64,000 nt of DNA. Origin: Piscirickettsiaceae bacterium. GTDB taxonomy: Bacteria; Pseudomonadota; Gammaproteobacteria; Nitrosococcales; Methylophagaceae. Below, in pieces: positions 6,761 through 23,552 of this stretch. The stretch covers positions 62,001 to 126,000 of the forward strand of contig JABSQO010000005.1 in NCBI GenBank assembly GCA_013215775.1, read 5' to 3'. Each line of letters begins with the position of its first letter. Within the stretch, counting starts at the first letter, position 1. Below the pieces are notes generated by a model. It was not told the DNA's origin and made no database searches. It saw nothing but the letters and a program-made list of their open reading frames with translations. A program made the translations under genes and the position numbers.

Positions 6761-7603
6761 TTATCCCAACAATGACAGCGCTACTTGAGGCAATGTATTT
6801 GCTTGAGCTAAAATAGATACACCTGCTTGTTGTAAAATTTGAGCACGTGTTAAGTTTGCAGTTTCTGCAGCAAAATCGGCATCTTCAATACGGCTACGTG
6901 CCGCAGTTAAGTTTATAGAGTAATTTTGTAAGTTTGAGATAACCGCTTCAAATCTATTTTGAACCGCACCAAATGTTGCCCGAGAACTACTGATAGAGTC
7001 AATATCGGTTGTTAAAGCAGCTAACTCTGCTGATGCCAACGCATTGGTAGTAACGTTGATAGTACCTGTTGCTGTTAATGAGGCTGCAAAGGAATTAAAG
7101 CTTGCACTCGCCAAATTCACTGTAGAAACGGCAATTTGATTATTTGCATTACCGTTAGCTCCTACTTGGAAGGTTAGCGAGGTTGCTGCACCACTTAACA
7201 ATACCGTGCCATTAAATTCAGTTGTTGCGATAATACGTGAAATTTCTTGTGTTAATTGATCAACCTCAAGTTGTAAACCAGCCGCATTACCTACGGTAGC
7301 ATTCGATGCTTGAACTGCAATCTCACGAATTCGTTGCAAGTTATTAGCAATTTCACCCAAAGCACCCTCAGCGGTTTGACCCAGAGAGATACCATCGGCA
7401 GCATTACGAACCGCCTGATTGGTACCGCGGATATCACGTGTTAATTGGCTAGCAACGAATAGACCTGCCGCATCATCTTTCGCACTATTGATACGCAAAC
7501 CTGATGATAAACGTTGAAGTGCTACATTTAAATCATTTTGAGATTTTGATAAACTGTTTTGTGCAGTAAGCGAAGCAATGTTTGTATTGATAATAAGAGC
7601 CAT
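6761..7603 (-). CDS. fliC: Flagellin 2 (sigma-28 type)
   Basis: Filament subunit of 280 aa. The conserved D0/D1 ends are [32 protein letters not shown] at the N-side, and [22 protein letters not shown] near the C-end. The central region is short and Ser/Thr-rich, with no large D2/D3 domains, so glycans would sit near the D1 edge. A TTG start 24 nt upstream was rejected because ATG 7603 fits the family and has AGGGGA six bases before it. Its ends are nearly the same as those of flagellin 1. It has its own sigma-28 promoter. Confidence 0.95.
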   Translation of the reverse strand: MALIINTNIASLTAQNSLSKSQNDLNVALQRLSSGLRINSAKDDAAGLFVASQLTRDIRGTNQAVRNAADGISLGQTAEGALGEIANNLQRIREIAVQASNATVGNAAGLQLEVDQLTQEISRIIATTEFNGTVLLSGAATSLTFQVGANGNANNQIAVSTVNLASASFNSFAASLTATGTINVTTNALASAELAALTTDIDSISSSRATFGAVQNRFEAVISNLQNYSINLTAARSRIEDADFAAETANLTRAQILQQAGVSILAQANTLPQVALSLLG

Positions 7604-7697
7604 TATTTTCCCCTGATAGCTCAGCACAGTTGTGACTGTACCTTAAAGTTAACTTTGGCAGATATGCAATGTGATGCATTCACTACCTCCAGCTATG

Positions 7698-7724
7698 CTA
7701 TCGGCAGCAGATAAATCTTCTTTA
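7698..7724 (-). promoter_or_regulatory. Sigma-28 (FliA) promoter of flagellin 2
   Basis: On the minus strand TAAA (7724-7721) is followed after exactly 15 nt by GCCGATAG (7705-7698). This matches the FliA consensus TAAA-N15-GCCGATAA except the last base. The leader would be about 85 nt. Confidence 0.8.
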
Positions 7725-7734
7725 GGGGAATTTA

Positions 7735-7788
7735 AGATAAAGATAAAGATAAAGAACATACAAACACGGTGGCAGTGTTCGTAGGTTC
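7735..7788 (-). terminator. Terminator after flagellin 1
   Basis: Fourteen-bp stem between 7775-7788 and 7754-7767, with one mismatch, one G-U pair and a 7-nt loop. It is followed on the minus strand by a U-rich tail made of three TTATCT units (AGATAA x3 at 7735-7752). It separates the flagellin 1 transcript from the flagellin 2 promoter. Confidence 0.75.
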
Positions 7789-7812
7789 TCTATATTTTTC
7801 GGGCTGTTAAAA

Positions 7813-8655
7813 TTAACCTTGTAGTAACTGCAGTGCTGTTTGAGGCAATGTATTTGCTTGAGCCAAAATGGATACGCCAGCTTGTTGGAGTATTTGGGCT
7901 CGTGTTAAGTTTGCAGTTTCTGCAGCAAAATCAGCATCTTCAATACGACTCCGTGCTGCAGTTAGGTTTTCCGCAAAATTCTGTAAGTTTGAAATGACCG
8001 CTTCAAATCGATTTTGAATCGCACCAAAAGTCGCTCTGGCTTCATTTACTGCATCAATATCTGCAGATAAATCGGCCAATTCTGCAGAAGCCACTGCTGT
8101 GGTAGTCACATTAATAGTACCTGTTGCTGTCAGTGAACCATTGTATGCGTTGAAACTAGCACTTGCCAAATTAACAGTAGACACTGAAACCTGATCTCGA
8201 GTTGTACCATCAGGACCAACATGAAATGTAAGCGAACCTGTAGCACTAATCAAAGCCACACCATTGAAATCAGTTGTCTGGATAATACGCGAAATCTCTT
8301 GGGTTAATTGATCAACCTCAAGTTGTAACCCAGCCGCATTACCCACGGTATCATTTGATGCTTGAATAGCTATCTCACGGATACGTTGTAAATTATTGGC
8401 TATTTCACCCAAGGCTCCCTCAGCAGTTTGACCAAGGGAAATACCATCAGCAGCATTACGAACCGCCTGATTAATACCTCGGATGTCACGAGTTAATTGA
8501 CCTGCCACAAACAAGCCAGCCGCATCATCTTTAGCACTATTGACACGCAAACCAGATGATAATCGTTGTAACGATGTGTTTAAATCATTTTGTGATTTAG
8601 CTAAATTCCTTTGAGCATTCAATGATGCAAGGTTCGTGTTGATAATAAGTGCCAT
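7813..8655 (-). CDS. fliC: Flagellin 1 (sigma-54 type)
   Basis: Filament subunit of 280 aa, paralogue of the next gene downstream. It has the same D0/D1 motifs ([24 protein letters not shown] and a C-terminal [20 protein letters not shown]) and ends in LLQG. The central part, about residues 135-200, differs most between the two. AGGG lies 7 nt before the ATG. It is driven by a sigma-54 promoter and closed by its own terminator, so it can be expressed before FliA is active. A tandem duplication is the likely origin. Confidence 0.95.
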
Positions 8656-8838: not shown

Positions 8839-11800
8839 TTATGTATCTCCCGCTGTCAAGGCATCTTTCCATTCTTGCGAATGGTCTTCAATAATAAAAT
8901 TATCTAACACCCATTGACGTAAATTATCCCCAGAATTTTGTAACTTTTTAGTCGAGGATACGGCTTTAGAGATAGTATCAATCCAAGCTTGTTTGTCATT
9001 AGGCACCCTAATCACCGGAGCCTCATAACTTTGATAAGGCAAAATATCAGTACAGATTACAGGCCAACCTAAAATACCATATTCCAATATGCGTAAATTA
9101 CTTTTAGCCTCATTGAAAGGATGCTGTTCAAGTGGTGCAACCGCCAAGTCTAAATTCAAGCTTGCTAATTTCTCAGGATAATTTTCAATAGATGTAAACT
9201 CATGATATTCCTTTACAAATGGCATTATTTCATCAGGACACATACCCATAAAAATCCAATCAACTTTATCTGCCGTTTCTTTGACAACATCAAAAATGAT
9301 TTCTAAGTCACCATAATGTTGTTGAGCCCCAGCCCAGCCCACTCGAGGTTTGTCTCCTTGCTGCCTCTTACTTGTCAATATTGACCAGACCTTACCTTCT
9401 AGCCTATTAGGAATTACTCTAATATCTTTTATCATATCGAGGCATAGATCTGCCAATGGTTGCGTCGACACAATAAGTCTATCGCAATATTTCAGCACCT
9501 TCCTGATCCTAGATTTCATATCTCTGTAACTTGCTTTAAGCGGTCTATATTGAGAACTGTTTTCTGGTAAGTCATGTAATAAATCATCCAGAGAATACAC
9601 CTTAAATATTTCTGGCAGGTACTCCCCGATTAATCGGATATTATCTATCTCCTCATTTTTGACTACATTCTGAAAAACATATGTATCAGGCTTCATTCGC
9701 GCTGCTTCTGTTAAGAATATATGATGTACTCCCAATTCGCATTGGGCCAGACCAGATTGACTTAACATATTAAAAGGTTGGGTAATACGATAATAACCAC
9801 TGCCTCCAGAGAGCGGTACTCCAAAGCAACGTAGCCGTGTATGAATGTTGACATCCCAATTTTGCAGTCCATTAATATCCACGCTAAAACTTTGGTTACT
9901 CAACACTAAATTTTTATTGTATGCTGGATCAGTAGCTAATTGTGGTAACCACCTTTCCCATATGCTTCTTTGTTCTTGTCGCTCCCTAGTTTTTTTATTA
10001 AATTCCGCATTAATATCTGAATAGAGGCCTTCTGATTTTTCCCGTACACTTGTACTACCATGGTGAACAACCGTGGCATAGGGTGTCCATAAAATTTTAT
10101 AGCCTAATTCTCTTACCTTAATACACAAGTCCACATCATTAAATAGTATCGCTAACTCTTCAGCATCCATGCCTCCAACATGATGGTAAATTTCTTTTTT
10201 AATCAATAATACAGCCGCTGTAACCACAGAAAAGTCTTGTTCCAGTAACGCTCGTCCCATGTGCCCTTTATCAGCTAAACCTAACTCTCCAATATAAGGA
10301 TGATCCGCAATTTGCCCGAGTCCTAAAATCACACCCGCATGCTGTAATTTACCTGATGTCGGGAACACCAGCCGTGCTCCAACGATACCGACATCCTCAC
10401 GCTGGCCATAAGACATCATCCTGCTTAACCATTCATCCTGAATAATTTCAGTATCATTATTCAACATTAACAAATAATCACCAGTCGCTTTTTCTGCTGC
10501 CAAATTATTCATTGCTGAAAAATTAAAGGGTTTATCGTAATAACAAACTTTCAATTTATCTGAAGAATATTGCTCAGTGAGAGTTTGGTAATACGCTAGC
10601 GTATCCAAATCTGTACTTTGATTATCAACAACAATTACCTCAAAGTTGGGGTATGTCGTTTTTTGTAAGAGGCTCTCAATACAAGGTTGAAAATATTCCA
10701 GCTTATCTTTAGTTGGAATAATTACTGTGACCTTTGGCTGCTCTTCATGTAAATATTCAATACGATAACTATTGTCTATATAGCCTTGCTGTATGGAAGT
10801 ATTCAGCTTATTTCTAACCAAGTGTTGCTCTAATGCCACCATACCAGCACTAGCATCAAAAGGTCTATCACCTTCCTTAGGATAGTGAATTAAAACATCC
10901 GCTATATGCCCGACCACAGCCTCGCCATAATTATCCAACCACCGTAGTGCAATATCATAATTTTCTGCTCCAGAAAATTGGCGAATCCCACCGAGCGTAA
11001 GTAATTCTGGCGTACGCATCCATCCGGGACCGATATACGGCGATGAACGTAATAAATCCAGATTAAAGTCTGGTTTAAATCGTGGAGTAGTTCGCACACC
11101 CGATGTATCTATTAAATCATCATCTGTATATATATAAGACCAATCTGGATATAAATTGCTATATTCAGCTATCTTCGCAAATGCATGAACCTCAAATTGA
11201 GTTCCAGGTTCAATAAAAATTGTCCATTGGGTATTTAAGTTTTTTATTTCCCTATTTACTACATCATAGGGAGACTCATTTTGAGTCAACACTATCCAAT
11301 GTAAGTTATCAACTTGCTCAAATATTGAATCTGGACTCTCTGTTTCAGCGATAACAGTCAGATGCCATTTGGAATAAAGTTGAGAAGCCAAAGAATCAAT
11401 CGTATCCGCAAGCAGTGCGCCATCTCCAGGCAAGAAAAATAAGATACAGTGCAATTCAGGATGAGTTTTCCATTTCAGCATCATCTGCTCAGCAATTATT
11501 TCGGCATCAATTTCTCTCAATGCATGCTTCCGAACCCATGTTTGATAGAGGTCATTGTCTAATAATTCTCTAATTTGAGTCTTGAGTTCTTGAGCTACAA
11601 AATCGACTTGGCCTAACGTTTGTTCTTCATCTAATATATTCAGTGATTCATACAATTCATCACGCATTCTCTTCGGAATCCTTTTCCCCTCACTGTAATC
11701 TACTAAGGACTCCGCCTGATTAACAATATTTGAAACCAAATTGGCACAAAAGTAATTACGTCGATCTGCACTACTTACTGGATTATTTAATCCTATTTCT

Positions 11801-12957
11801 CCACTTTTCTGCCGATCTTGTTTTATTTGAGCAGTAATTAATGAAGCCTCTGTCTTTAACAAACTTTTTACAACTTCTGCCAATGACGCCCCTGTTTTCT
11901 CATGAGTGTCTATTGCAATTTGATAAAGAGACCTACTCTCTTTATTGTCTTGCTCTAATAAGTTTAATTCATTATCAGTTATTGGCTTTTTACCCTCAGA
12001 ACGAGGCATATCGCCAAAGGCACTATAGACAGATTTCAATAACTCATGGGCTTGTTGATGGCTGACATCTAACGTCAAAACATCTAATACTAATCCGTAA
12101 ACAATATTCACCGAATATTTGAATGATCCTAGAAATTTGTATTCTGCTTTCTTAGCGGCGTTCGCCAAAAATAATTTTTCCTCAATAATCTGCTTTGCTG
12201 TCGATACATCCACATTTATCAAATTATCACGTCTTTTTATCGCATTAAAAATAACCATCATCGTTTCATAACGACCAGCATAAGCGTGATTACCAGCTTG
12301 CCGCATACTTAAGTTTTTGCCGTGAACTCTATATTCGGTCAATCTCTGGGGTAATCGTTCAATATCATAATATTCTAAGATTCTTAACCAATGATCAAAA
12401 TCCTGTACATAATCTAATACTGGATTAAGGAAACCTACTTCCTTGAGAATTCTTGTTCTAAACATCGCTGAAGGGGCATTAAGAAAGTTTCCTTCCAAAA
12501 GCTGGGACCTGAGATTTAAAATTGGTTGAGAAAATACTGAAGAAAATGAAATGTCTTGCCCTTTACTATCAATTGTATTTACATCAGAACAAACTACGCC
12601 AACATTGGCGTGCTTCTGTAAGAATGCAACTTGAATTTCAAGTCTTGCTGGCAACATTCTGTCATCAGCCCCTAAAATAGCAATGAACTCTCCACGCGCC
12701 TTACTATAAGCTTCATTGAACGTCCGGCACACACCTCGGTTTTTTGCTGAGGAAATAAAGTTCACTTTATCAGGGTGGCATTGCTGCAATTCGGAAATAA
12801 TAGATACAGAATTATCGGTAGATGCATCATCTACGACGATCAACTCCCAGTTTTCATAGGTTTGTGCAAAAACTGATTCTATAGCTTCGCCAATATATTT
12901 ATCATAGTTATAACTGGCAATACAGATACTAACTAAAGGAGTTGTTTGAGCTGACAT
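8839..12957 (-). CDS. Large multi-domain glycosyltransferase, probably for flagellin
   Basis: Cytoplasmic protein of 1372 aa with several transferase modules. Residues about 1-230 are a GT2 domain (VSICIASYNYDKYIGEAI, acidic GADD). Residues about 490-690 resemble a degenerate GT2 with YTDDDLID. Residues about 735-985 are a clear GT2 (VTVIIPTKDK, DXD-like NNDTE, then FNDVDLCIKVRELGY). Residues about 1035-1360 look like a GT-B fold (GSGYYRI near the start, NLRILEYGILGWPVIC near the end). It lies directly upstream of the flagellin genes, so it may build or attach the whole glycan. AAGGA before the ATG supports the start. Acceptor and sugars cannot be read from sequence. Confidence 0.85.
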   Translation of the reverse strand: MSAQTTPLVSICIASYNYDKYIGEAIESVFAQTYENWELIVVDDASTDNSVSIISELQQCHPDKVNFISSAKNRGVCRTFNEAYSKARGEFIAILGADDRMLPARLEIQVAFLQKHANVGVVCSDVNTIDSKGQDISFSSVFSQPILNLRSQLLEGNFLNAPSAMFRTRILKEVGFLNPVLDYVQDFDHWLRILEYYDIERLPQRLTEYRVHGKNLSMRQAGNHAYAGRYETMMVIFNAIKRRDNLINVDVSTAKQIIEEKLFLANAAKKAEYKFLGSFKYSVNIVYGLVLDVLTLDVSHQQAHELLKSVYSAFGDMPRSEGKKPITDNELNLLEQDNKESRSLYQIAIDTHEKTGASLAEVVKSLLKTEASLITAQIKQDRQKSGEIGLNNPVSSADRRNYFCANLVSNIVNQAESLVDYSEGKRIPKRMRDELYESLNILDEEQTLGQVDFVAQELKTQIRELLDNDLYQTWVRKHALREIDAEIIAEQMMLKWKTHPELHCILFFLPGDGALLADTIDSLASQLYSKWHLTVIAETESPDSIFEQVDNLHWIVLTQNESPYDVVNREIKNLNTQWTIFIEPGTQFEVHAFAKIAEYSNLYPDWSYIYTDDDLIDTSGVRTTPRFKPDFNLDLLRSSPYIGPGWMRTPELLTLGGIRQFSGAENYDIALRWLDNYGEAVVGHIADVLIHYPKEGDRPFDASAGMVALEQHLVRNKLNTSIQQGYIDNSYRIEYLHEEQPKVTVIIPTKDKLEYFQPCIESLLQKTTYPNFEVIVVDNQSTDLDTLAYYQTLTEQYSSDKLKVCYYDKPFNFSAMNNLAAEKATGDYLLMLNNDTEIIQDEWLSRMMSYGQREDVGIVGARLVFPTSGKLQHAGVILGLGQIADHPYIGELGLADKGHMGRALLEQDFSVVTAAVLLIKKEIYHHVGGMDAEELAILFNDVDLCIKVRELGYKILWTPYATVVHHGSTSVREKSEGLYSDINAEFNKKTRERQEQRSIWERWLPQLATDPAYNKNLVLSNQSFSVDINGLQNWDVNIHTRLRCFGVPLSGGSGYYRITQPFNMLSQSGLAQCELGVHHIFLTEAARMKPDTYVFQNVVKNEEIDNIRLIGEYLPEIFKVYSLDDLLHDLPENSSQYRPLKASYRDMKSRIRKVLKYCDRLIVSTQPLADLCLDMIKDIRVIPNRLEGKVWSILTSKRQQGDKPRVGWAGAQQHYGDLEIIFDVVKETADKVDWIFMGMCPDEIMPFVKEYHEFTSIENYPEKLASLNLDLAVAPLEQHPFNEAKSNLRILEYGILGWPVICTDILPYQSYEAPVIRVPNDKQAWIDTISKAVSSTKKLQNSGDNLRQWVLDNFIIEDHSQEWKDALTAGDT

Positions 12958-14581: not shown

Positions 14582-15406
14582 TCATACCATTGTTTCATAG
14601 CAGCGTACATCATAATCTAGTGTCGCTACATCTATATAATTTCCATTCTCACTAACAATTGAACCTACTTTTCCACTAGACCGTGTCGTCAAAATATCTG
14701 CATACTCTATAGAAATACCATGAATGATCGGTAACTGATATTCTCGAAATGAGAAAGCCCGAATTTGATTCCTGACATCCCTCGCTGACCTATTAAAATC
14801 TATCACTATCTTTGAAAAGTCTAATGCATCCGTAGAAAAATAAGAGGCTCCCTCAAGCATCTGAGGATGCTGTTGATAGTCATCTGCCAAGATAGTCTTA
14901 ATCATTTTTTTGAATAAAATCGTGCCATTTTCAATATACTTTAGATAGAGGCTTCGACATGTTTCATTGCTTGAAAGTGGAAATGTTAACTGTTCAACAA
15001 TATCTCCTGTATCTATTCCATCATCAATACAATGTAGTGTTACTCCAGACTTATCATCGCCAAAAAGTACTGGCCAAACAGAGGTATACATTCCGCGATA
15101 TTTCGGTAATAGTGAAAAATGAATATTAAATATTCTTGTCGTGTTCATCTCTTCTGTACGGATGATACGATCAAACTCAAGTGAGAAAAAAATAAAATCC
15201 GTTAGTGTATAAATATCAGGGAAATCGATTGCCACTATTTTCTCTTGCTGACAAAATTTTCTAAAACTCAATTGGAACGAATCAATACCAACATCTGTTT
15301 TATTGAAACACGCCACAATATCTTCTTTTCTGACTCCTAGTTCACTAATAAGGTATCGAACACAATCAATAGCAATATTATTCTTTCCCGCAATACAAAT
15401 TTTCAT
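14582..15406 (-). CDS. Sugar-nucleotide N-formyltransferase (QdtF/VioF-like)
   Basis: Protein of 274 aa in the formyltransferase family using N10-formyl-tetrahydrofolate. The catalytic triad is complete: N94 and H96 in FNIHFSLLPKYRG and D132 in IDDGIDTGDI. The C-terminal 80 residues form an extra domain not needed for Met-tRNA formylation. Next to 3-ketoisomerase and 3-aminotransferase genes, the likely reaction is N-formylation of a dTDP-3-amino-3,6-dideoxyhexose. It overlaps the upstream GT61 gene by 4 nt. It is too short and in the wrong context for a housekeeping fmt. Confidence 0.8.
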   Translation of the reverse strand: MKICIAGKNNIAIDCVRYLISELGVRKEDIVACFNKTDVGIDSFQLSFRKFCQQEKIVAIDFPDIYTLTDFIFFSLEFDRIIRTEEMNTTRIFNIHFSLLPKYRGMYTSVWPVLFGDDKSGVTLHCIDDGIDTGDIVEQLTFPLSSNETCRSLYLKYIENGTILFKKMIKTILADDYQQHPQMLEGASYFSTDALDFSKIVIDFNRSARDVRNQIRAFSFREYQLPIIHGISIEYADILTTRSSGKVGSIVSENGNYIDVATLDYDVRCYETMV

Positions 15407-16884
15407 CCAATATCTACTTTACTAATTGTCAGTTCAATTTCATCTAATTCTACTAAATAGTCAGTATGGATATTATCTTGTGATTGATTCACAACACTGT
15501 GTCCTTGCACCTCAAAGAAATTTTGTATGCCACAGGCTTGTGTTAAATTTCGGAAATATATGCCAATGTTTTTTTCTGATTGAGCAATAAGAATAACTGA
15601 GCACTTAGACTCACAAAACACTAAATTGGAGAATGATGCCCCTGTCGGTCCGGCAACAATTTTTGCAGATGAAAACAACTCAACCTGTTGAAAAAAACTA
15701 AGCTTGGCAGTATCTATTATTTCAAAACCATTGTTAGAAAAACACAGTTCAACTTCATCCTGATTCAGCATTTTTCGTTTCTGTAATGTCGAGCCACGTC
15801 TAGACAAATAGATTTTACGGGACAGTGGCTTTTTATTGCTGTCTTTTCTAAACCGATTACGCAGAAAAGCAAGAGCTTCTGGGTGATAACAAGCATCATC
15901 AGTATTTAAAATGACATTCGGTAACGGATCAAAACAAATTTTAGATAACTTTGACGGTATAACAGCTGTGCCAATGGTGTACCTGTTCCCCGCTTCAGCT
16001 CTTATAACTTGCCTATTTTCACCCAATAAGTTTTGCAATATAACATAGTGTTGATCAGGCATATGCCCATGGACTAGGATGGGTAAGCTTTCATATTCAG
16101 CACATGTTTCAATTAATAACCACTTAGGAACCACTTCCAACAACCAATGATAATAGTTATCAGCAGCACGACTATTTAATACAATACAGGACTCAATGTA
16201 GAGAGATTGATTAGGAATGCCTGCTAACACCATATCCTGTTCATCTTTCCCTTCCGCTTTTTTAAAACCGATAATATTTCTTGTCCAGGTTGTCGACACA
16301 ATATCACTACGTTCAGTCTCAGCATAATCTTGATCATCTGCTAAATAGATCATGTCACTGCTAAATATAGCACTAGATTGCCCGACAGAATGTACATTGT
16401 TCAATTCAGCAATATAGGGTTTTTCCATCGCTGCTGAACTTGACTCTAGTTGAATATTCAGTCGTTTTCCATTGCCCTCTTCAATGTATGCTCCCATCCC
16501 CTTAATAGGGAAAAATTCCAACATACTATTTTGTGGATCGAGATCGTAAATAAGTTTTATCCGTCTCATTAATTCATCGTTATATGAATTCCTAACTAAT
16601 GCATGAAAGTAAGCTTCGTAAGCCTGATTCTTTTCTCCCCGAACGCTATAAATATCGCCTAATACTTGATAAAAAAACCAATCCTCATTACCGCCATATT
16701 TTTGTGCGGATGATATATATATCAAAGCCTGGGAGAGATCATCTAATTTTAAATGAACAAGTGCTGCCAATGTCAGGATATGAAAATCTTTAGGATTGCT
16801 TATCAATTCTGACACAAGGATATCCTTAGCCTCATCAAAATTATTATTTTCAATAAGAGATTGTGTATTTTTAATTAAATTCAT
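15403..16884 (-). CDS. TPR domain - GT61 family glycosyltransferase
   Basis: Protein of 493 aa. Residues about 1-115 form TPR-like helical pairs, and the rest is a GT61/DUF563 transferase marked by NYYHWLLEVVPKWL, ISLSRRGS-like KIYLSRRGS and the late GPTGASFSNLVFC. GT61 enzymes transfer varied sugars in polysaccharides and glycoproteins. The TPR part may bind the acceptor protein (inference). The ATG at 16884 overlaps the stop of the cytidylyltransferase gene by one base (TGATG). A TTG 21 nt upstream was rejected. Confidence 0.78.
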   Translation of the reverse strand: MNLIKNTQSLIENNNFDEAKDILVSELISNPKDFHILTLAALVHLKLDDLSQALIYISSAQKYGGNEDWFFYQVLGDIYSVRGEKNQAYEAYFHALVRNSYNDELMRRIKLIYDLDPQNSMLEFFPIKGMGAYIEEGNGKRLNIQLESSSAAMEKPYIAELNNVHSVGQSSAIFSSDMIYLADDQDYAETERSDIVSTTWTRNIIGFKKAEGKDEQDMVLAGIPNQSLYIESCIVLNSRAADNYYHWLLEVVPKWLLIETCAEYESLPILVHGHMPDQHYVILQNLLGENRQVIRAEAGNRYTIGTAVIPSKLSKICFDPLPNVILNTDDACYHPEALAFLRNRFRKDSNKKPLSRKIYLSRRGSTLQKRKMLNQDEVELCFSNNGFEIIDTAKLSFFQQVELFSSAKIVAGPTGASFSNLVFCESKCSVILIAQSEKNIGIYFRNLTQACGIQNFFEVQGHSVVNQSQDNIHTDYLVELDEIELTISKVDIG

Positions 16885-17645
16885 CAAATCCCTTGCCAAC
16901 GCCAATCATGTAACCACAATGAATTTTGATTTGATATTGTCTTATATTGAGCTAAATCATTTTCATCATCTATTTCTAGCCAGCGTCCGCTTATCCCAAC
17001 TGTATTAATTTTTATACCATTAGTCAGTAATCGCTGTAATAATGCCGTCATATCTAAATTATCGATAACTTGCTTAGATTCAAGATCTAGTACTTTCTTT
17101 ATCTGCTTCCATCCCTCTGGGCGAATCAATAGTAAGCCCATATATTGTCCCGATATTTCAGCTAAATCCGATACTGTTCGACCAATATCTACTAATACAC
17201 CATCCTGCTCAGCAAAACTTTCTGCATCATCTAAAGGGTTTTCAAAACGAAGACTCCATAAATCTAACCATTTTTTATCATAAGAAATGACAATATCCCC
17301 TTTCGCCAAGGATAGTTCTTTAACAATATCAGGATGGTAAACAATATCTCCATAAGACACGATACATTCTTGTGATGAAAGTATGTCATCCGCACAGAGC
17401 AATGTTCTAACCATATTAGAAACCGCCCAATCGAAATTATGAATGCTCTTTGTTTTGTAAAAAGAAAATTGTTCTGCAAGATAGCCCGTCATGACCGTCA
17501 CATCATTTATCCCTGACTCTGCCATAGCAGCCAGTTGCCACTCAAACAATGTCTTTCCAGCCAAGTTAACTAGGGGTTTTGGTTTATTATCCGTTAATGT
17601 ATTTAATCGTGATCCACGACCTGCCGCCAAAATAATCCCTTTCAT
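16884..17645 (-). CDS. Nucleotidyltransferase, predicted phosphoglutamine cytidylyltransferase (Cj1416-like)
   Basis: Protein of 253 aa with a Rossmann-type NTP-transferase fold. The N-terminal signature is IILAAGRGSRLNTLTDNKPKPLV, with D99 in YGDIVYH and a C-terminal WLEIDDENDL typical of LicC-type cytidylyltransferases. Alone it could be a phosphocholine or sugar-phosphate cytidylyltransferase. Its position directly after the amidotransferase and PEP-synthase-like genes is the order of C. jejuni Cj1416-Cj1417-Cj1418, so CTP + L-glutamine phosphate to gamma-glutamyl-CDP-amidate is predicted. It overlaps its upstream neighbour by 4 nt. Confidence 0.75.
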   Translation of the reverse strand: MKGIILAAGRGSRLNTLTDNKPKPLVNLAGKTLFEWQLAAMAESGINDVTVMTGYLAEQFSFYKTKSIHNFDWAVSNMVRTLLCADDILSSQECIVSYGDIVYHPDIVKELSLAKGDIVISYDKKWLDLWSLRFENPLDDAESFAEQDGVLVDIGRTVSDLAEISGQYMGLLLIRPEGWKQIKKVLDLESKQVIDNLDMTALLQRLLTNGIKINTVGISGRWLEIDDENDLAQYKTISNQNSLWLHDWRWQGI

Positions 17646-18298
17646 CCATTATTTCCCAACAGAGCCCAACGAAATAACTTTCTATCCATTTCAGAAAATT
17701 CCTTTTCTCGCTCAGGATGCCACATCATTGCAAATATACGAGCTTCTTTCCATATAACTGCCTCTACATCACCTTCATCAGTTCTCGCAAACGGAATAAT
17801 TGATCGTGGTTGGAACTTTTCGGATAAACCAAAACCATGGAATGAATTAACTTCTAATGTAGTATTCGACGATGCAATACCATTCATACTTTGACAGATA
17901 TTGACTGTATGTCTGCTAGCGATATGATTTTCGGCTAATGACCTTAACTCTCCCCCGAAGTGTTGCCATATAATTTGTAAACCTCGACAAACACCCACAA
18001 TGGGTAAGTGGTGATCTATAGCATAGTCAATCAATGCAAATTCTGTTTCATCACGCAGTGGATATTCCCCAACATCATTTCCTCCTGATAAAATAATGCC
18101 TTCAAGCTGATGAGATTGTGCAAATTCACATACTGCATCCGAGCCGAGATTTGGTATTAATATCCAATTAATATCGTCGCCCATTGACCAAGCTAAAAAA
18201 TCATTCCAATTATGTGCAAGCGTATCGCGTTGTTCATCGTAATGAATTTCTTCAATGATACGCATCGTTATACCAATTGTTTTCTTCAACTTATTCAT
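17642..18298 (-). CDS. Class I glutamine amidotransferase, predicted gamma-glutamyl-CDP-amidate hydrolase (Cj1417-like)
   Basis: Protein of 218 aa, peptidase C26/gamma-glutamyl hydrolase fold. Nucleophile C104 is in GVCRGLQ, and H194 and E196 are in WHPERE, completing the triad. LEGIILSGGNDV and NSFHG fit the gamma-glutamyl hydrolase branch rather than synthase-coupled amidotransferases. In C. jejuni the homologue removes glutamate from gamma-glutamyl-CDP-amidate to give CDP-phosphoramidate. It overlaps the glutamine-kinase-like gene by 8 nt and the cytidylyltransferase gene by 4 nt, so all three are translationally coupled. Confidence 0.78.
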   Translation of the reverse strand: MNKLKKTIGITMRIIEEIHYDEQRDTLAHNWNDFLAWSMGDDINWILIPNLGSDAVCEFAQSHQLEGIILSGGNDVGEYPLRDETEFALIDYAIDHHLPIVGVCRGLQIIWQHFGGELRSLAENHIASRHTVNICQSMNGIASSNTTLEVNSFHGFGLSEKFQPRSIIPFARTDEGDVEAVIWKEARIFAMMWHPEREKEFSEMDRKLFRWALLGNNG

Positions 18299-20681
18299 GA
18301 CGAATAGCTTTTAACACTTTGCTATGACAGTTCAGCACAATGTGATCTGTAGTAGTCATACGTCTAAATGTCTGTTCACCGCAACCAATTGCAGCAGGTA
18401 TTCCAAATTCAGCACAACGGATAGCCATATGAGAATTCACACCACCAAATTGTGTAATCAAACCAAGTATGCCTTTAGTAAATATCCAATCAAAGCCAGG
18501 ATCCGCATTTTTAATGCATACGATCTTGTTAAACAGTGGCTGTGATACAGAAGATTTTTCATCTAGGATAACAGGTTGACCTTCTACGATTTCTGTTGTG
18601 ACAAAATTAGGATCATTACGATTTAATGGCACCACAAATACATCTCGTGCATCTCGTAATAGATGTCCTAAACGGAGTGGTTGTGCTGCACGTAAGTTTT
18701 TCTCAGCTTCGGATGCTAAGTTAAGGAAATGTCGATCTTGATAATCTAATAAGGGAGATAACTGTGAGGCCGAAATATCCTGCCAATCTAAATAAGATAC
18801 ATCTTCACGAGATAAGCCATTTTTCTCTCCCCACACTTCTAAGCTAAACAAAGCGTCCGATAGGTTTTTTGTAAAAACAAACTTACCTAACTCTCTCCCT
18901 TTTATTGCCATTTCGGCATACTGTAAAAATATCTCTGGCGCTATTGTTAGTCCATTTTCATCAAATAGTTGGCTGACCAGTTCAAGCTCTTGCTCCGTAA
19001 AAATAAATGATTTCGATGATTGTTTAGTATAAGTTATTGATGGGGATGAAAATAAATCGGGACATTCATCGTACCGCATCGAAGTAATGTCATATGTGCC
19101 TGGTCGCAAGTGCCCATATTTATTTATAAAATCAGCCACTAGATCTTCATCTTGTCCTGCCTGTTGAAAATCGGTAACCAAATTACTGGTCACTGTCTGC
19201 ACAGCTTGTTTCAACTGTTCGACTCGCTTAGTAGTTAGCGCATCACGAGTTATTAAAGAGCGAAGAATTGCTTCAACGATAAATCCGTGGCGAGCCAAAC
19301 AAGCAAAAGGTAAAGTCCCAAATTGTTGACATTCATTGAGTAACTCAATAGCTGTTTGTAAAGGATCACTACTATTTTGTATGTTGTCTTTATGTCTACT
19401 TTGTTGCTGGATAACTAATTGATTTACTCGTGCCATCGAGGTCTGTAAATTTCCTTTCTCACTAATATCCATTAAATGATTGGTCAATAATCGTAATTCA
19501 GATTGATAGTCAAATAATTGCTGTGAATCTAATAAGTTTGGGTATCGCTCAGCAAAACTTCGTTCAAAATCAACATCCATACAAGTATGTGCAATTTCAA
19601 ATTCAACCTTATCATGTAGTTCAGGATTCTGGTTTAATCTCTCAAGCCAAGCATCAACCAACAAAGAACCAATCTCATTTGACAAATTCTCAGGTAAAAA
19701 GGAATTAAAACTATTTCGTATATCAATATAAGGATGATGATCTATCACCACCATTAATTCTTCAGCGGGCACATTACGGTACCCCATCATTGCCCTGGCA
19801 TCACGCCATATAGAATGCGTTATTAAGTGCCGATATAACGATACCGCCAGAGGACGTGAGGTGACACCAATAATTTCAGCAGGATTCCAATCACTCATCA
19901 CCCCTAAAATAGTTCGTTGTCCAAGCAATGATTTTTTGGGTAATGATCTTTGATTGATAAATTGCTCGATAAATGTCAATTTACGAGAAGTTCGCCGCTC
20001 CGTGACAGGGTGCCAAGTGTGGTGTAATGCTATACGGCGTACTTGTAGAATATACAATTCATTTAAAGGTGTTAGTACAAATTCAACATCAAGAGGTTCA
20101 TTGCCACATATTTCTTCTAACTCATGTAATCCTTTAAGGATAGTTCTTATCCGATCAGATTCAATTAAAGATCGATCATATTCTCGATAAACTAATACTG
20201 TTTTATTAACTTCCTGTCCTGATGTGACCGTATCCGTACGGCCGGTTTCATCATCGTAACTAATAACATAATATGGCGCTCCCGTTTCAATATCATGTGT
20301 CATCGCTACACCACTCAGTGCAATATCTTGCAACATTGGCTGTACAAGCACTTGATCTAATGGGTTACCAGAGAATGAGCTCATGACTTTCAAAATGGAA
20401 TTTTTTATATCTAAAAAATTATCTGTTTTTACATTTAATACGGAATCATATGCACCTGCCATCGAGTTGGCTTGACCGTCTTCGCCTTGCGCACTACTTC
20501 GTATAGCTAAAAATTCATCTGAAAAATGTGATGTGATGTGATGCAGAATATTATCTGACTTCCGGTTCCACTGATCGCATGTAAACACATACTGTGGCAA
20601 CAACTTGCCCAAAGAAAGTTTATCTTTCAACAATGCTAACGTTTCCGATTTTGTACCGAAATGAAATTTATGTGTATTCAT
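18291..20681 (-). CDS. PEP-synthase-like enzyme, predicted L-glutamine kinase (Cj1418-like)
   Basis: Protein of 796 aa with the PPDK/PEP-synthase layout. An N-terminal ATP-binding domain carries AIRSSAQGEDGQANSMAGAY and YILQVRR. A long linker follows, then a C-terminal swivelling domain with predicted phospho-histidine H751 in GGVNSHMAIRCAEFGIPA. There is no PEP/pyruvate-binding barrel as in true PEP synthase. This matches the glutamine kinase of the C. jejuni phosphoramidate pathway, which makes L-glutamine phosphate from ATP. Rifampin phosphotransferase shares the fold but not the gene context. Confidence 0.78.
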   Translation of the reverse strand: MNTHKFHFGTKSETLALLKDKLSLGKLLPQYVFTCDQWNRKSDNILHHITSHFSDEFLAIRSSAQGEDGQANSMAGAYDSVLNVKTDNFLDIKNSILKVMSSFSGNPLDQVLVQPMLQDIALSGVAMTHDIETGAPYYVISYDDETGRTDTVTSGQEVNKTVLVYREYDRSLIESDRIRTILKGLHELEEICGNEPLDVEFVLTPLNELYILQVRRIALHHTWHPVTERRTSRKLTFIEQFINQRSLPKKSLLGQRTILGVMSDWNPAEIIGVTSRPLAVSLYRHLITHSIWRDARAMMGYRNVPAEELMVVIDHHPYIDIRNSFNSFLPENLSNEIGSLLVDAWLERLNQNPELHDKVEFEIAHTCMDVDFERSFAERYPNLLDSQQLFDYQSELRLLTNHLMDISEKGNLQTSMARVNQLVIQQQSRHKDNIQNSSDPLQTAIELLNECQQFGTLPFACLARHGFIVEAILRSLITRDALTTKRVEQLKQAVQTVTSNLVTDFQQAGQDEDLVADFINKYGHLRPGTYDITSMRYDECPDLFSSPSITYTKQSSKSFIFTEQELELVSQLFDENGLTIAPEIFLQYAEMAIKGRELGKFVFTKNLSDALFSLEVWGEKNGLSREDVSYLDWQDISASQLSPLLDYQDRHFLNLASEAEKNLRAAQPLRLGHLLRDARDVFVVPLNRNDPNFVTTEIVEGQPVILDEKSSVSQPLFNKIVCIKNADPGFDWIFTKGILGLITQFGGVNSHMAIRCAEFGIPAAIGCGEQTFRRMTTTDHIVLNCHSKVLKAIRHE

Positions 20682-20690
20682 AATTAAGCA

Positions 20691-21410
20691 TCAATCATTT
20701 AAAGATAAAATTGCCAAATGTTTCAATAAAGGGTGTACAACAAAATACATTTCCCCTTCACTGTCTTTATCTATTTTTTTAGGCAATGCCATTGTCATTA
20801 CATAGTCTGTTAGCACTGATACCAGAAGATCAGCTCTAATTGAGCAATCATACAAATAATCAATGTCCGTAGTTTTAGTGGGAGCCTGGTAATGCTTTCT
20901 AGCTAAGATTGGTCCATCATCAATATTTTCTGTTAAGAGTAACGCTGATGCCGCACAACGATTTTCATTCAATAAACTATAATATATTGTTGTACTACCT
21001 CGATAGTCTGGCAACCAACCTGAGTGTATATGCAGTAATTGGCCTGAAGAATTTAATGTCTGCGTTGGAACAATCTGTCCTCCAAATCCAGAAAATATTG
21101 TTAGCTTCGGTGCAAGTTCATTTAAGAGCTTGTTAAGCTCTTTGCCACCTATATCATCATTATCAATATACGTGGCATCCCACATGCATTCATCTATTGT
21201 TTGTTGAATTGAAATACTAAAATCAGGTGTAAAAGCACCTAATACTGCAGGTTGTTGTGATTGAACTTGTGCCGTGTTTCTATCTTCTGAACAACCATAG
21301 ACAATAACATGTGACGGAATCAAGTTTGTGAATTGAATTGCCTGTAAATATGCTTGTGAACGTGCAGTTGGTGCACATAACACAATAAATTTTCCATCCT
21401 CATTACTCAT
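20691..21410 (-). CDS. Formyltransferase-like protein with altered catalytic Asn
   Basis: Protein of 239 aa similar to the N-terminal domain of formyltransferases. The LLHIHSGWLPDYRG motif aligns with the NxHxSLLPxxRG motif, but the catalytic Asn is His (H127); H129 and D164 (NIDDGPILARK) remain. No C-terminal sugar-nucleotide domain is evident. It lies inside the phosphoramidate set, 9 nt before the glutamine kinase gene, and overlaps the upstream unknown gene by ATGA. It may act on a substrate of that pathway or on a sugar; the function is not established. Confidence 0.6.
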   Translation of the reverse strand: MSNEDGKFIVLCAPTARSQAYLQAIQFTNLIPSHVIVYGCSEDRNTAQVQSQQPAVLGAFTPDFSISIQQTIDECMWDATYIDNDDIGGKELNKLLNELAPKLTIFSGFGGQIVPTQTLNSSGQLLHIHSGWLPDYRGSTTIYYSLLNENRCAASALLLTENIDDGPILARKHYQAPTKTTDIDYLYDCSIRADLLVSVLTDYVMTMALPKKIDKDSEGEMYFVVHPLLKHLAILSLND

Positions 21411-21964
21411 AACATTCCTGACTTAACATTATGAATAATATTTTTTTCCATAGATAACAACCAATTAAGACCGCCAAGTTGTCGGGCAGTCAATTTATAC
21501 TGCTGTGAAACCAGCGTGTCCATTACTTTAAGTAAAGTATTAACCCATTGTATTTTATAATTTTCTTCAGTCAGTTTAACCAATAACTCTCCAAATAAGA
21601 GATAAAGATCCAACTCATCATATATTGCTGAGAGAGCTGGCTTGTGAGGAGGGATTCGTTGATAGTGGGAAAATAATCGCTTACTAACTTCAAACTTTTT
21701 GACTAAACGAGCAATCCAATAATCCTTGTCTTCTTGTCCATCATTAATTAGATTTAATAATAATAGTTGCGTATCAATCTCATCTAATCTTATTTTTTGC
21801 TCAATACATTGTGTCGGCTTTTTAGCTTCTTCATCAGATGTGTAGACTGCTAATCGATTTTCTTGCCAACCATCAATAAATTCTTCACCTCGAAAGGTAG
21901 TATAAAAATAGGTGTTTGGCTGTTCGAGCAATCGTTTATCAGTATAGGGGTATTTTTCACTCAT
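21407..21964 (-). CDS. Protein of unknown function in the phosphoramidate set
   Basis: I do not recognise this 185-aa protein. It is soluble, with no signal peptide or membrane segment. It has an aromatic-rich N-terminus (YPYT, TYFYTTFRGEEFIDGW) and a mostly helical remainder rich in Leu, Lys and Glu. ATG 21964 was chosen over TTG 22000 because GGGGA lies 6 nt before it. It overlaps the CysC-like gene by 8 nt and the next gene by 4 nt. Tight coupling argues that it works with the neighbours. No SAM-binding motif was seen, so it is not an obvious methyltransferase. Confidence 0.7.
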   Translation of the reverse strand: MSEKYPYTDKRLLEQPNTYFYTTFRGEEFIDGWQENRLAVYTSDEEAKKPTQCIEQKIRLDEIDTQLLLLNLINDGQEDKDYWIARLVKKFEVSKRLFSHYQRIPPHKPALSAIYDELDLYLLFGELLVKLTEENYKIQWVNTLLKVMDTLVSQQYKLTARQLGGLNWLLSMEKNIIHNVKSGML

Positions 21965-22481
21965 CAGTGATCCCCGACACAGATAATATCTGAGTGACAA
22001 ATTGATCTATATCTGATGAGTCATGCGTATTATTTATCACTAAATTTGGATGAAGTGGTATCTCAAAAGGAATATCAACTCCAACTACATTGTTTGTTTT
22101 TCCAGATAATGCAGGGGCATATAGTGATTTGTCATCACGGGCTACTAATTCATCTAGCGGGACATCGATAAACACTTCAACATACTGGTTTAAGTTATCA
22201 CGATTCCATTGCCTATGCTCTTCAAATATTGATAATAAACAACATACAACATTAATTTTCTGGTCGTCTAATAACTTACATAAAGCAAGTGCTCTTTCTG
22301 CATTCACACGCCTTCCATCAAGACTATAATCAGTTTTGATATTGTCATGGGAAAATATTTGTCGAAGATGATCCCCATCTAGTAAAACTGTGTTTGAATC
22401 TGTTTCTCGCCACCGTCGATAAACTTCCTTTCCTATTGTCGATTTGCCGGCTCCTGATAGACCAATAATCCAGATCACCAT
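21957..22481 (-). CDS. CysC-like kinase, predicted cytidine diphosphoramidate kinase (Cj1415-like)
   Basis: Protein of 174 aa in the adenylylsulfate kinase family. Walker A is GLSGAGKS at residues 7-14, followed by LLDGDHLR and RVNAERALALCKLL, and later RDDKSLYAPALSGKTNNVVGVD. No ATP sulfurylase or other cys gene lies nearby, and the gene sits with the three phosphoramidate-type genes. In C. jejuni the relative phosphorylates the 3'-OH of CDP-phosphoramidate. Genuine APS kinase is the alternative; sequence motifs alone do not separate them. ATG 22481 was preferred to TTG 22487. Confidence 0.75.
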   Translation of the reverse strand: MVIWIIGLSGAGKSTIGKEVYRRWRETDSNTVLLDGDHLRQIFSHDNIKTDYSLDGRRVNAERALALCKLLDDQKINVVCCLLSIFEEHRQWNRDNLNQYVEVFIDVPLDELVARDDKSLYAPALSGKTNNVVGVDIPFEIPLHPNLVINNTHDSSDIDQFVTQILSVSGITDE

Positions 22482-22490
22482 AACCAAATA

Positions 22491-23552
22491 TTAACCTTTC
22501 CCTTGCATAGCGATAATATTACCTGCAGATTTAATTGCTGCTGCTGCTACCTCAGATGAAAAGCCGTAATGTGGAGCAAAATAATATTGCCTCAACTTTT
22601 TCCTTGCAAGATTCTGCTCTTGCCAAATTTCAGCATCATTAAAGATATCTCGTATTTTATGGAAGGAAAATATATCAATATTGATAATCTGTTCTCTCAA
22701 AGCGAGATCAGGTGAATTCTCTCCAGATAATGGATCATTGGAAGCATTAGGTAAATTCAGTAATAGTAGCGGTTTATCAAGATATATCGCCCCAAAGGCT
22801 GTTCCACCATAATCACAAACAACCTTGTCAGAAATAGCGAATAAAAACACATTATCTACAACAGTTGTAATCACCGCAGTAAAATTTAGATTCATCAATT
22901 TCGCAACCACATCAGGTTCTTCTTCCAATGATAAAGGGTGCAGTTTTACAATAATGTTATAACTGTCCATCAAAGATGACATCAATTCCGCATACATATC
23001 GACTGAAGATAATTCTTTCCAAGTTGGCAGCCAAAGGATTGTCTCTTTAGCAGGATCACAATCTAATTTCTGTTTAAAATCGGTAAGTTCTAACTCTTGA
23101 TTGAAGTAAATATCATATCGTGGATACCCCATCTGAACAGAGGGTGCATTAAATTGTGTTAATTGTTGCTCATGGAACGGACCAAAACATAGAAATATAT
23201 CGTAATAGTGGTTCCATTCAGAAAAATTATGGCGACCTTTCCCTAACGCATACATAAAGCGAATGTTACATTCACCAAGCACCTTAATCAGTGGTACACC
23301 TTGAAAAGCATGCATTGCATGATTTGAAATTAAATAAGGGAAACGGTGCTGCTCCGCTAAAACATCCTCAATTATTACGTAATTAACTCTATACTCTTGG
23401 CAGGCTTCGATAGTACGCTCACGTTCAAATTGTGATCCATGGACTATTACTAAGAATTCGTTCCTTTCTAACTTATCCCAAACCGGTGAATAGTGATTAA
23501 ACATTTCAGAGAAATGCACTAAAAATGCAATATTAATGTCCTTAAATACCAT
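22491..23552 (-). CDS. CDP-glycerol glycerophosphotransferase-like (TagB/TagF fold) protein
   Basis: Protein of 353 aa with a GT-B-like fold of the TagB/TagF/SpsB group: LWLPTWKE, IIVKLHP, and CDYGGTAFGAIYLDKPLLLLN, which matches the DySS-fEa-lLdKP nucleotide-binding block. No membrane segment. Family members transfer a phospho-group from a CDP-linked donor. As the first gene after flgL and next to predicted CDP-phosphoramidate genes, it is a candidate for the final phosphoramidyl transfer, though a polyol-phosphate or sugar transferase is also possible. No promoter or terminator is visible in the 37-nt gap to flgL. Confidence 0.7.
   Translation of the reverse strand: MVFKDINIAFLVHFSEMFNHYSPVWDKLERNEFLVIVHGSQFERERTIEACQEYRVNYVIIEDVLAEQHRFPYLISNHAMHAFQGVPLIKVLGECNIRFMYALGKGRHNFSEWNHYYDIFLCFGPFHEQQLTQFNAPSVQMGYPRYDIYFNQELELTDFKQKLDCDPAKETILWLPTWKELSSVDMYAELMSSLMDSYNIIVKLHPLSLEEEPDVVAKLMNLNFTAVITTVVDNVFLFAISDKVVCDYGGTAFGAIYLDKPLLLLNLPNASNDPLSGENSPDLALREQIINIDIFSFHKIRDIFNDAEIWQEQNLARKKLRQYYFAPHYGFSSEVAAAAIKSAGNIIAMQGKG

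Follow-up and report, generated by a model that had tools for sequence, protein, structure and literature searches.

The window, a 64,000-nucleotide stretch of DNA from a Piscirickettsiaceae bacterium, bears on its minus strand an island flanked by flgK/flgL-like genes and by two flagellin-like genes (6761-8655), both recognised by eye. The gene order is GPT (CDP-glycerol glycerophosphotransferase-like, 22491..23552), KIN (APS-kinase-like, 21957..22481), U185 (21407..21964), FT (formyltransferase-like, 20691..21410), GLNK (PEP-synthase-like, 18291..20681), HYD (class-I glutamine amidotransferase-like, 17642..18298), CYT (NTP transferase, 16884..17645), a GT61-like glycosyltransferase with a TPR-like N-terminus (15403..16905; PF04577, 81.7 bits), a second formyltransferase gene, FT2 (14582..15406), FdtA-like and FdtB-like genes, named by likeness, and a large glycosyltransferase gene, all on the minus strand. 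A 1372-aa glycosyltransferase-like ORF, seen by eye at 8839-12957, lies after the island and ahead of the two flagellin-like genes. The adjoining position of this ORF and the flagellin-like genes suggests that flagellin is the glycan acceptor.

By family match, all four donor-forming genes of a phosphoramidate pathway (GLNK, HYD, CYT and KIN) are present in the window. GLNK gives a full-length match to NF004508/PRK05849 (904 bits, cut-off 501), which we take to be the Cj1418 family, and is probably an L-glutamine kinase. KIN, with its start set at the ATG found in its homologues (MVIWIIGLSG), matches PF01583 (104.8 bits) and NF004041 (164.2 bits, cut-off 127), and is probably a Cj1415-like CDP-phosphoramidate 3'-kinase. 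CYT, matching PF12804/PF00483, is a probable phosphoglutamine cytidylyltransferase of the Cj1416 kind, and HYD, whose best NCBIfam match (NF045546, 112 bits) stays under the cut-off of 250, is a probable Cj1417-like gamma-glutamyl-CDP-amidate hydrolase. The four Cj counterparts are putative assignments based on these family matches. GPT (PF04464, 47 bits, cut-off 22.1) may be considered an alternative candidate for the phosphoramidate transferase.

Between KIN and GLNK lie the two genes on which this study is focused. U185, whose ATG is at 21964 and whose stop is at 21407, encodes a helical protein of 185 aa (a 197-aa version of the ORF starts at an upstream TTG), and its partner FT encodes 239 aa, also from an ATG. 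The initial annotation had both genes overlapping each other and their neighbours; this holds for U185, which shares 8 nt with KIN and 4 nt (ATGA) with FT, but on its other side FT is separated from GLNK by a 9-nt gap.

The initial annotation could not place the 185-aa protein. The scan of 30 members of the U185 family gave no NCBIfam match and a single chance-level Pfam match. The model of U185 is all-helical (pLDDT 89), with no Foldseek match at E<=0.001 and a best VIA Z of 10.1, within the range of helical proteins; the Foldseek and VIA matches were partial, (alpha/alpha)-barrel-like and no better than those that helical bundles give. Nine residues are invariant in 30/30 aligned rows (Y5, Y7, Y19, R37, E92, Y121, K146, D149 and E173), and the polar character of several of them (R37, E92, K146, D149, E173) suggests that the protein binds a ligand and is more than a scaffold.

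In the case of FT, the family is recognisable and the catalytic site is changed. FT scores 33.9 bits against the PF00551 profile (cut-off 26.1), with LP..RG and D.G retained in the alignment, and its model (pLDDT 90) has the Formyl_trans_N fold: the best VIA match is 1fmt, methionyl-tRNA formyltransferase (Z 18.1, rmsd 3.6, 205 aligned), and all 50 structure matches listed are formyltransferase-fold enzymes. As the initial annotation had claimed, the position of the catalytic Asn is occupied by His127, two residues before the conserved catalytic His129 (LLHIHSGWLPDYRG), so that the usual Asn-x-His...Asp is found here as His127-x-His129...Asp164, with Asn replaced and His129 and Asp164 kept. 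The same His-x-His stands instead of Asn-x-His in 34/34 FTs (33 by pattern, L065 from the alignment), and an alignment of 29 FTs shows as invariant L126-H127-x-H129, I163-D164-x-G166, D184, D188, R192 and H226-P227. Asn-x-His is present in all five other Formyl_trans_N proteins of this genome, namely those called Fmt-like, PurN-like and PurU-like by likeness, a C12 paralogue and FT2 (PF00551, 58.2 bits; IFNIHFSLLPKYRG), as well as in 30/30 formyltransferase loci, mostly PurN-like, kept from 40 relatives. The FTs form a subfamily of formyltransferases in which the catalytic site is altered throughout.

The position in question is known to steer the chemistry of these enzymes: the Asn of formyltransferases holds the formyl group, and Ile104 takes its place in the hydrolase domain of 10-formyl-THF dehydrogenase, as reported in PMC4388273. 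The conserved I-D-x-G stretch is consistent with FT binding 10-formyl-THF and transferring the formyl group to an amine; the loss of the formyl-holding Asn in all 34 FTs means that formyl transfer may itself have been lost, which argues against a formyl reading. One might then see in FT a hydrolase or a metal enzyme, with His-x-His and Asp as a 2-His-1-carboxylate site and U185 as partner, serving for example to trim or recycle CDP-phosphoramidate. Such a role would agree with the hydrolysis that accompanies the changed Asn in the 10-formyl-THF hydrolase domain (PMC4388273) and with the further invariant residues in the C-terminal part (D184, D188, R192, H226), but the strong conservation of FT with U185 and the kinase better fits a biosynthetic step, and we consider it rather unlikely.

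To follow the pair beyond this genome, for which the initial annotation had proposed a survey of glutamine-kinase loci, 84,980 species genomes were scanned for GLNK. The scan gave 243 relatives, of which the best 80 loci were kept; adding the window itself and seven loci taken from further genomes gave a set of 88, searched by family profiles over all six-frame ORFs. U185 and/or FT were present in 35 of the 88 loci, and both scored in 33; of the two others, one (L047) is on a contig that ends right after U185 and one (L095) has a diverged 159-aa U185-like ORF before FT. The counts refer to non-independent loci, as the set includes four that are almost identical (L075, L078, L079 and L096) and two close pairs (L005/L006 and L009/L014), and 14 of the 88 showed no family beyond GLNK, CYT, HYD and GPT; with many loci on short contigs, the absence of a family from such places means little. 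The arrangement goes beyond chance: the homologues of U185 and FT share about 24-47% identity and keep the same order in several phyla, the pair being found in Pseudomonadota, Planctomycetota (L031, L065), Omnitrophota (L043), Desulfovibrionaceae (L080), Patescibacteria (L063) and Anaerolineales (L081). KIN is present in 34/35 pair loci, and its translation is often coupled to that of U185 and FT, with many overlaps of 4 nt. U185 and FT are fused into one ORF in four loci (L005, L006, L007, L019), and KIN and U185 in three (L046, L069, L080). In L081 (9269-12394), a single 1041-aa protein combines cytidylyltransferase and glutamine kinase and is followed by U185-FT-GPT, with KIN absent from the locus.

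The association also holds at the level of genomes. Among 397 phylum-wide genomes, GLNK was found in 15, FT in 4 (counted at E<=1e-18, its own NxH paralogue aside) and U185 in 3, and all genomes with FT or U185 were within the 15. Among 59 relatives, U185 occurred in two, with GLNK in both neighbourhoods. FT had no match in the plasmid collection searched; relatives of GLNK were seen on 14 plasmids, including those of Agrobacterium vitis/Allorhizobium, Azospirillum, Cupriavidus and Vibrio alfacsensis.

The initial annotation had allowed that both proteins could belong to an unrelated sugar pathway, and the presence in the island of FdtA/FdtB-like genes and of FT2, together with the Formyl_trans_N membership of FT, would suit an ordinary sugar N-formyltransferase with U185 as its accessory, placed by chance beside the phosphoramidate genes. 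However, that role is already filled here by FT2 with its N-x-H motif, every one of the 34 FTs carries His-x-His, an FdtA-like gene accompanies the pair in 13 of the 33 loci and is lacking in 20, and in the 397-genome set the pair is exclusive to genomes with GLNK. This explanation is strongly disfavoured, and we consider it very improbable. Occurrence in 35/88 GLNK loci, the fusions and the exclusivity to GLNK genomes thus place the pair in the phosphoramidate pathway, as the initial annotation had it. The two proteins are conserved as a pair and dedicated to a widespread branch of this pathway, in which they are tied to the kinase, and they probably carry out a late step not described so far: in the parts of the open-licence PMC literature on glutamine kinase and phosphoramidate gene clusters that were covered, the pair does not appear.

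The initial annotation had also set this run against the methylated phosphoramidate of C. jejuni. Pfam and NCBIfam scans of the nine genes between 14582 and 23552, a range outside which the FdtA/FdtB-like genes and the 1372-aa glycosyltransferase lie, detected no SAM methyltransferase. Three SAM methyltransferase families, MT8, MT9 and MT20, recur in the GLNK loci (assigned from Pfam matches and an NCBIfam scan of their representatives), and elsewhere in the genome studied here the MT20 and MT8 profiles gave weak partial matches only (31.9 and 17.2 bits, respectively). This indicates that the product of this lineage may be unmethylated. The contrast thus holds for this run but does not extend to the pair in general, since MT8 is present in 11 of the 35 pair loci and MT20 in 9, one locus having both, so that at least one of them occurs in 19/35; the idea that the pair is a general substitute for methylation was rejected on these grounds. 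In a genome of the same genus (G008), MT20 directly follows FT and stands between FT and GLNK, where the window has 9 nt. MT9, in contrast, was found in 24 loci and never with the pair (0/35 vs 24/53, Fisher p 4e-7, for non-independent loci).

An unmethylated phosphoramidate would not be new, as it has been reported in C. jejuni (PMC9561416) and in the LPS of Xanthomonas and Shewanella (PMC3907429). Moreover, the Cj1419 and Cj1420 knockouts are reported to leave the C. jejuni capsule unchanged (PMC11800397), which leaves the C. jejuni methyltransferase itself unassigned.

By the companion of the kinase, the GLNK loci fall into at least three types: MT9, SGNH26 and U185-FT. In the kinase tree (64 of the 69 kinases, without those of L063, L010, L034, L060 and L062; support by SH-aLRT only), the pair-linked and SGNH26-linked KINs form one group and most MT9-linked ones stand apart, L095 being an exception. 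SGNH26, a protein of ~405 aa with a membrane-anchored SGNH look by eye, fills the U185-FT slot between KIN and MT8 in L003, L033, L034, L050, L053, L062 and L067; the one member scanned had no Pfam or NCBIfam match. It never occurs with the pair (0/35 vs 7/53, p 0.04), a weak exclusivity for loci that are non-independent. In the MT9 loci, where 28 of 42 candidate operon neighbours plus one from L064 were scanned with Pfam, sulfotransferase-family proteins are the commonest neighbours (Sulfotransfer_3 in 5/29, Sulfotransfer_1 in 4/29), and in the MT9-type GLNK locus L039 (9834-11276) an APS-kinase domain is followed by a sulfotransferase domain in one ORF. This fusion hints that phosphoramidate transfer in the MT9-type loci is the work of sulfotransferase-fold enzymes. 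Beside GLNK in such loci there also appears a radical SAM protein with a B12-binding domain (upstream in L055, L064 and L068; each domain in 4/29 neighbours).

The MT9-locus sulfotransferases and the L039 kinase fusion support the view that U185-FT is itself the phosphoramidate transferase, moving PO2NH2 from 3'-phospho-CDP-phosphoramidate to a sugar hydroxyl with His127, His129 and Asp164 re-used for phosphoryl transfer, and with methylation by MT8 or MT20 as a separate, optional step. The order of genes agrees with this, since U185-FT (or SGNH26) comes next after KIN, often with MT8 or MT20 behind it; the sulfotransferase-family protein may fill the same role in MT9 loci, the fusion in L039 fits a PAPS-like donor, and the KIN-U185 fusions are its parallel. 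The co-occurrence of the pair with methyltransferases shows that it does not simply replace them, and where GPT is missing (18 of the pair loci surveyed) no other family was found in more than 4 of 65 operon neighbours (65 of 75 candidates scanned). On the other hand, the Formyl_trans_N fold is not known to us from any phosphoryl transferase, the pair is conserved with donor genes and not with acceptor genes, as suits a donor-modifying enzyme, and GPT, a member of a CDP-dependent phosphotransferase family, stands beside KIN in many pair loci and would then be redundant. GPT is present in 16/35 pair loci, and its family includes a TagF-like domain of C. jejuni that is reported to move glycerol phosphate from CDP-glycerol (PMC11924219), which speaks for a transferase apart from the pair and so for a modifying role of U185-FT. 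We regard a transferase role of U185-FT as the main alternative, a serious possibility although a doubtful one.

The reading that we prefer, if tentatively and with less than even confidence, is that U185-FT uses one-carbon (formyl) chemistry on the compound that the kinase makes. In this scheme, GLNK, CYT and HYD would form CDP-phosphoramidate and KIN would phosphorylate its 3' position. The overlap and fusion with the kinase suggest that U185-FT acts next, on the KIN product. U185 and FT would make up one two-subunit enzyme, single-chain in some bacteria, and define a second widespread type of the pathway. FT, in which the fold, the I-D-x-G of the pteridine site and the catalytic residues His and Asp are kept and the formyl-holding Asn is replaced by His, would use 10-formyl-tetrahydrofolate to formylate the donor at its P-NH2 nitrogen, and U185 would be the obligate helical partner holding the nucleotide. 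The flagellar glycan would then receive the phosphoramidate group, with GPT as the possible transferase, and methylation would follow in those loci that have an MT20 or MT8 gene, which this one does not. In this scheme the genes, their conservation, pairing and fusions, the predicted fold and the changed residue are observed, and the substrate, the donor, the chemistry and the order of steps are inferred.

Besides the replaced Asn, several points count against formyl chemistry. We know of no N-formyl phosphoramidate as a functional group in nature, the kinase-fused sulfotransferase of L039 points to a transferase in that slot, SGNH26 occupies the same slot in seven loci without a folate link, and L081 has the pair without KIN in the locus. 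Folate supply was tried as a discriminator and set aside, since FolD is present in 7/7 genomes tested, including the Patescibacteria and Anaerolineales ones. What likelihood the four readings considered here do not take up is left to other functions.

We incline, on balance, to the view that there is a second class of biological phosphoramidate, in which U185-FT would have one of two roles: formylation of the P-N nitrogen, or transfer of the phosphoramidate by an enzyme of formyltransferase fold. In both cases the fold would serve a catalytic use that is new, in a hitherto unrecognised pair that occurs across several phyla. Most descriptions of phosphoramidate decorations, which are rare, come from Campylobacter capsules. 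In one review (PMC9561416) the glutamine kinase is even said to be specific to C. jejuni, whereas the 243 relatives in our genome scan make the family a widespread one. The work also defines an unnamed protein family (U185) and a formyltransferase subfamily with an altered catalytic site, and the division of the GLNK loci into at least three types opens two questions to testing: the identity of the enzyme that delivers the phosphoramidate to the glycan, and the nature of the final groups.

Compared with known systems, the locus most resembles the O-methyl phosphoramidate pathway of C. jejuni, with its donor genes Cj1415-Cj1418 and transferases Cj1421/Cj1422, since the same four kinds of donor-forming genes (kinase, cytidylyltransferase, amidate hydrolase and glutamine kinase) are found in both. 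The C. jejuni donor is reported to be CDP-phosphoramidate 3'-phosphate (PMC11800397). Unlike that pathway, the one described here has U185-FT added, belongs to a flagellar island and not to a capsule locus, and has no adjoining methyltransferase. With PAPS/sulfotransferase systems it shares a 3'-phosphonucleotide donor made by an APS-kinase-like enzyme, and the MT9-type loci share sulfotransferase-family proteins as well; the pair loci differ, as only 2 of the 65 operon neighbours scanned match such proteins in the 18 surveyed loci that lack GPT, and none of the nine run genes scanned does. FT has the fold, the catalytic His and Asp and the LP..RG of the PF00551 enzymes (methionyl-tRNA formyltransferase, ArnA and sugar N-formyltransferases), but departs from them in having His for Asn in all members, a short C-terminal part with HP.LKH and an obligate helical partner, U185. 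Finally, the hydrolase domain of 10-formyltetrahydrofolate dehydrogenase has the same fold (Z 16.7 to 1s3i) and is changed at the same Asn position (PMC4388273), although it bears Ile and not His there, is joined to other partner domains and belongs to a eukaryotic folate enzyme.
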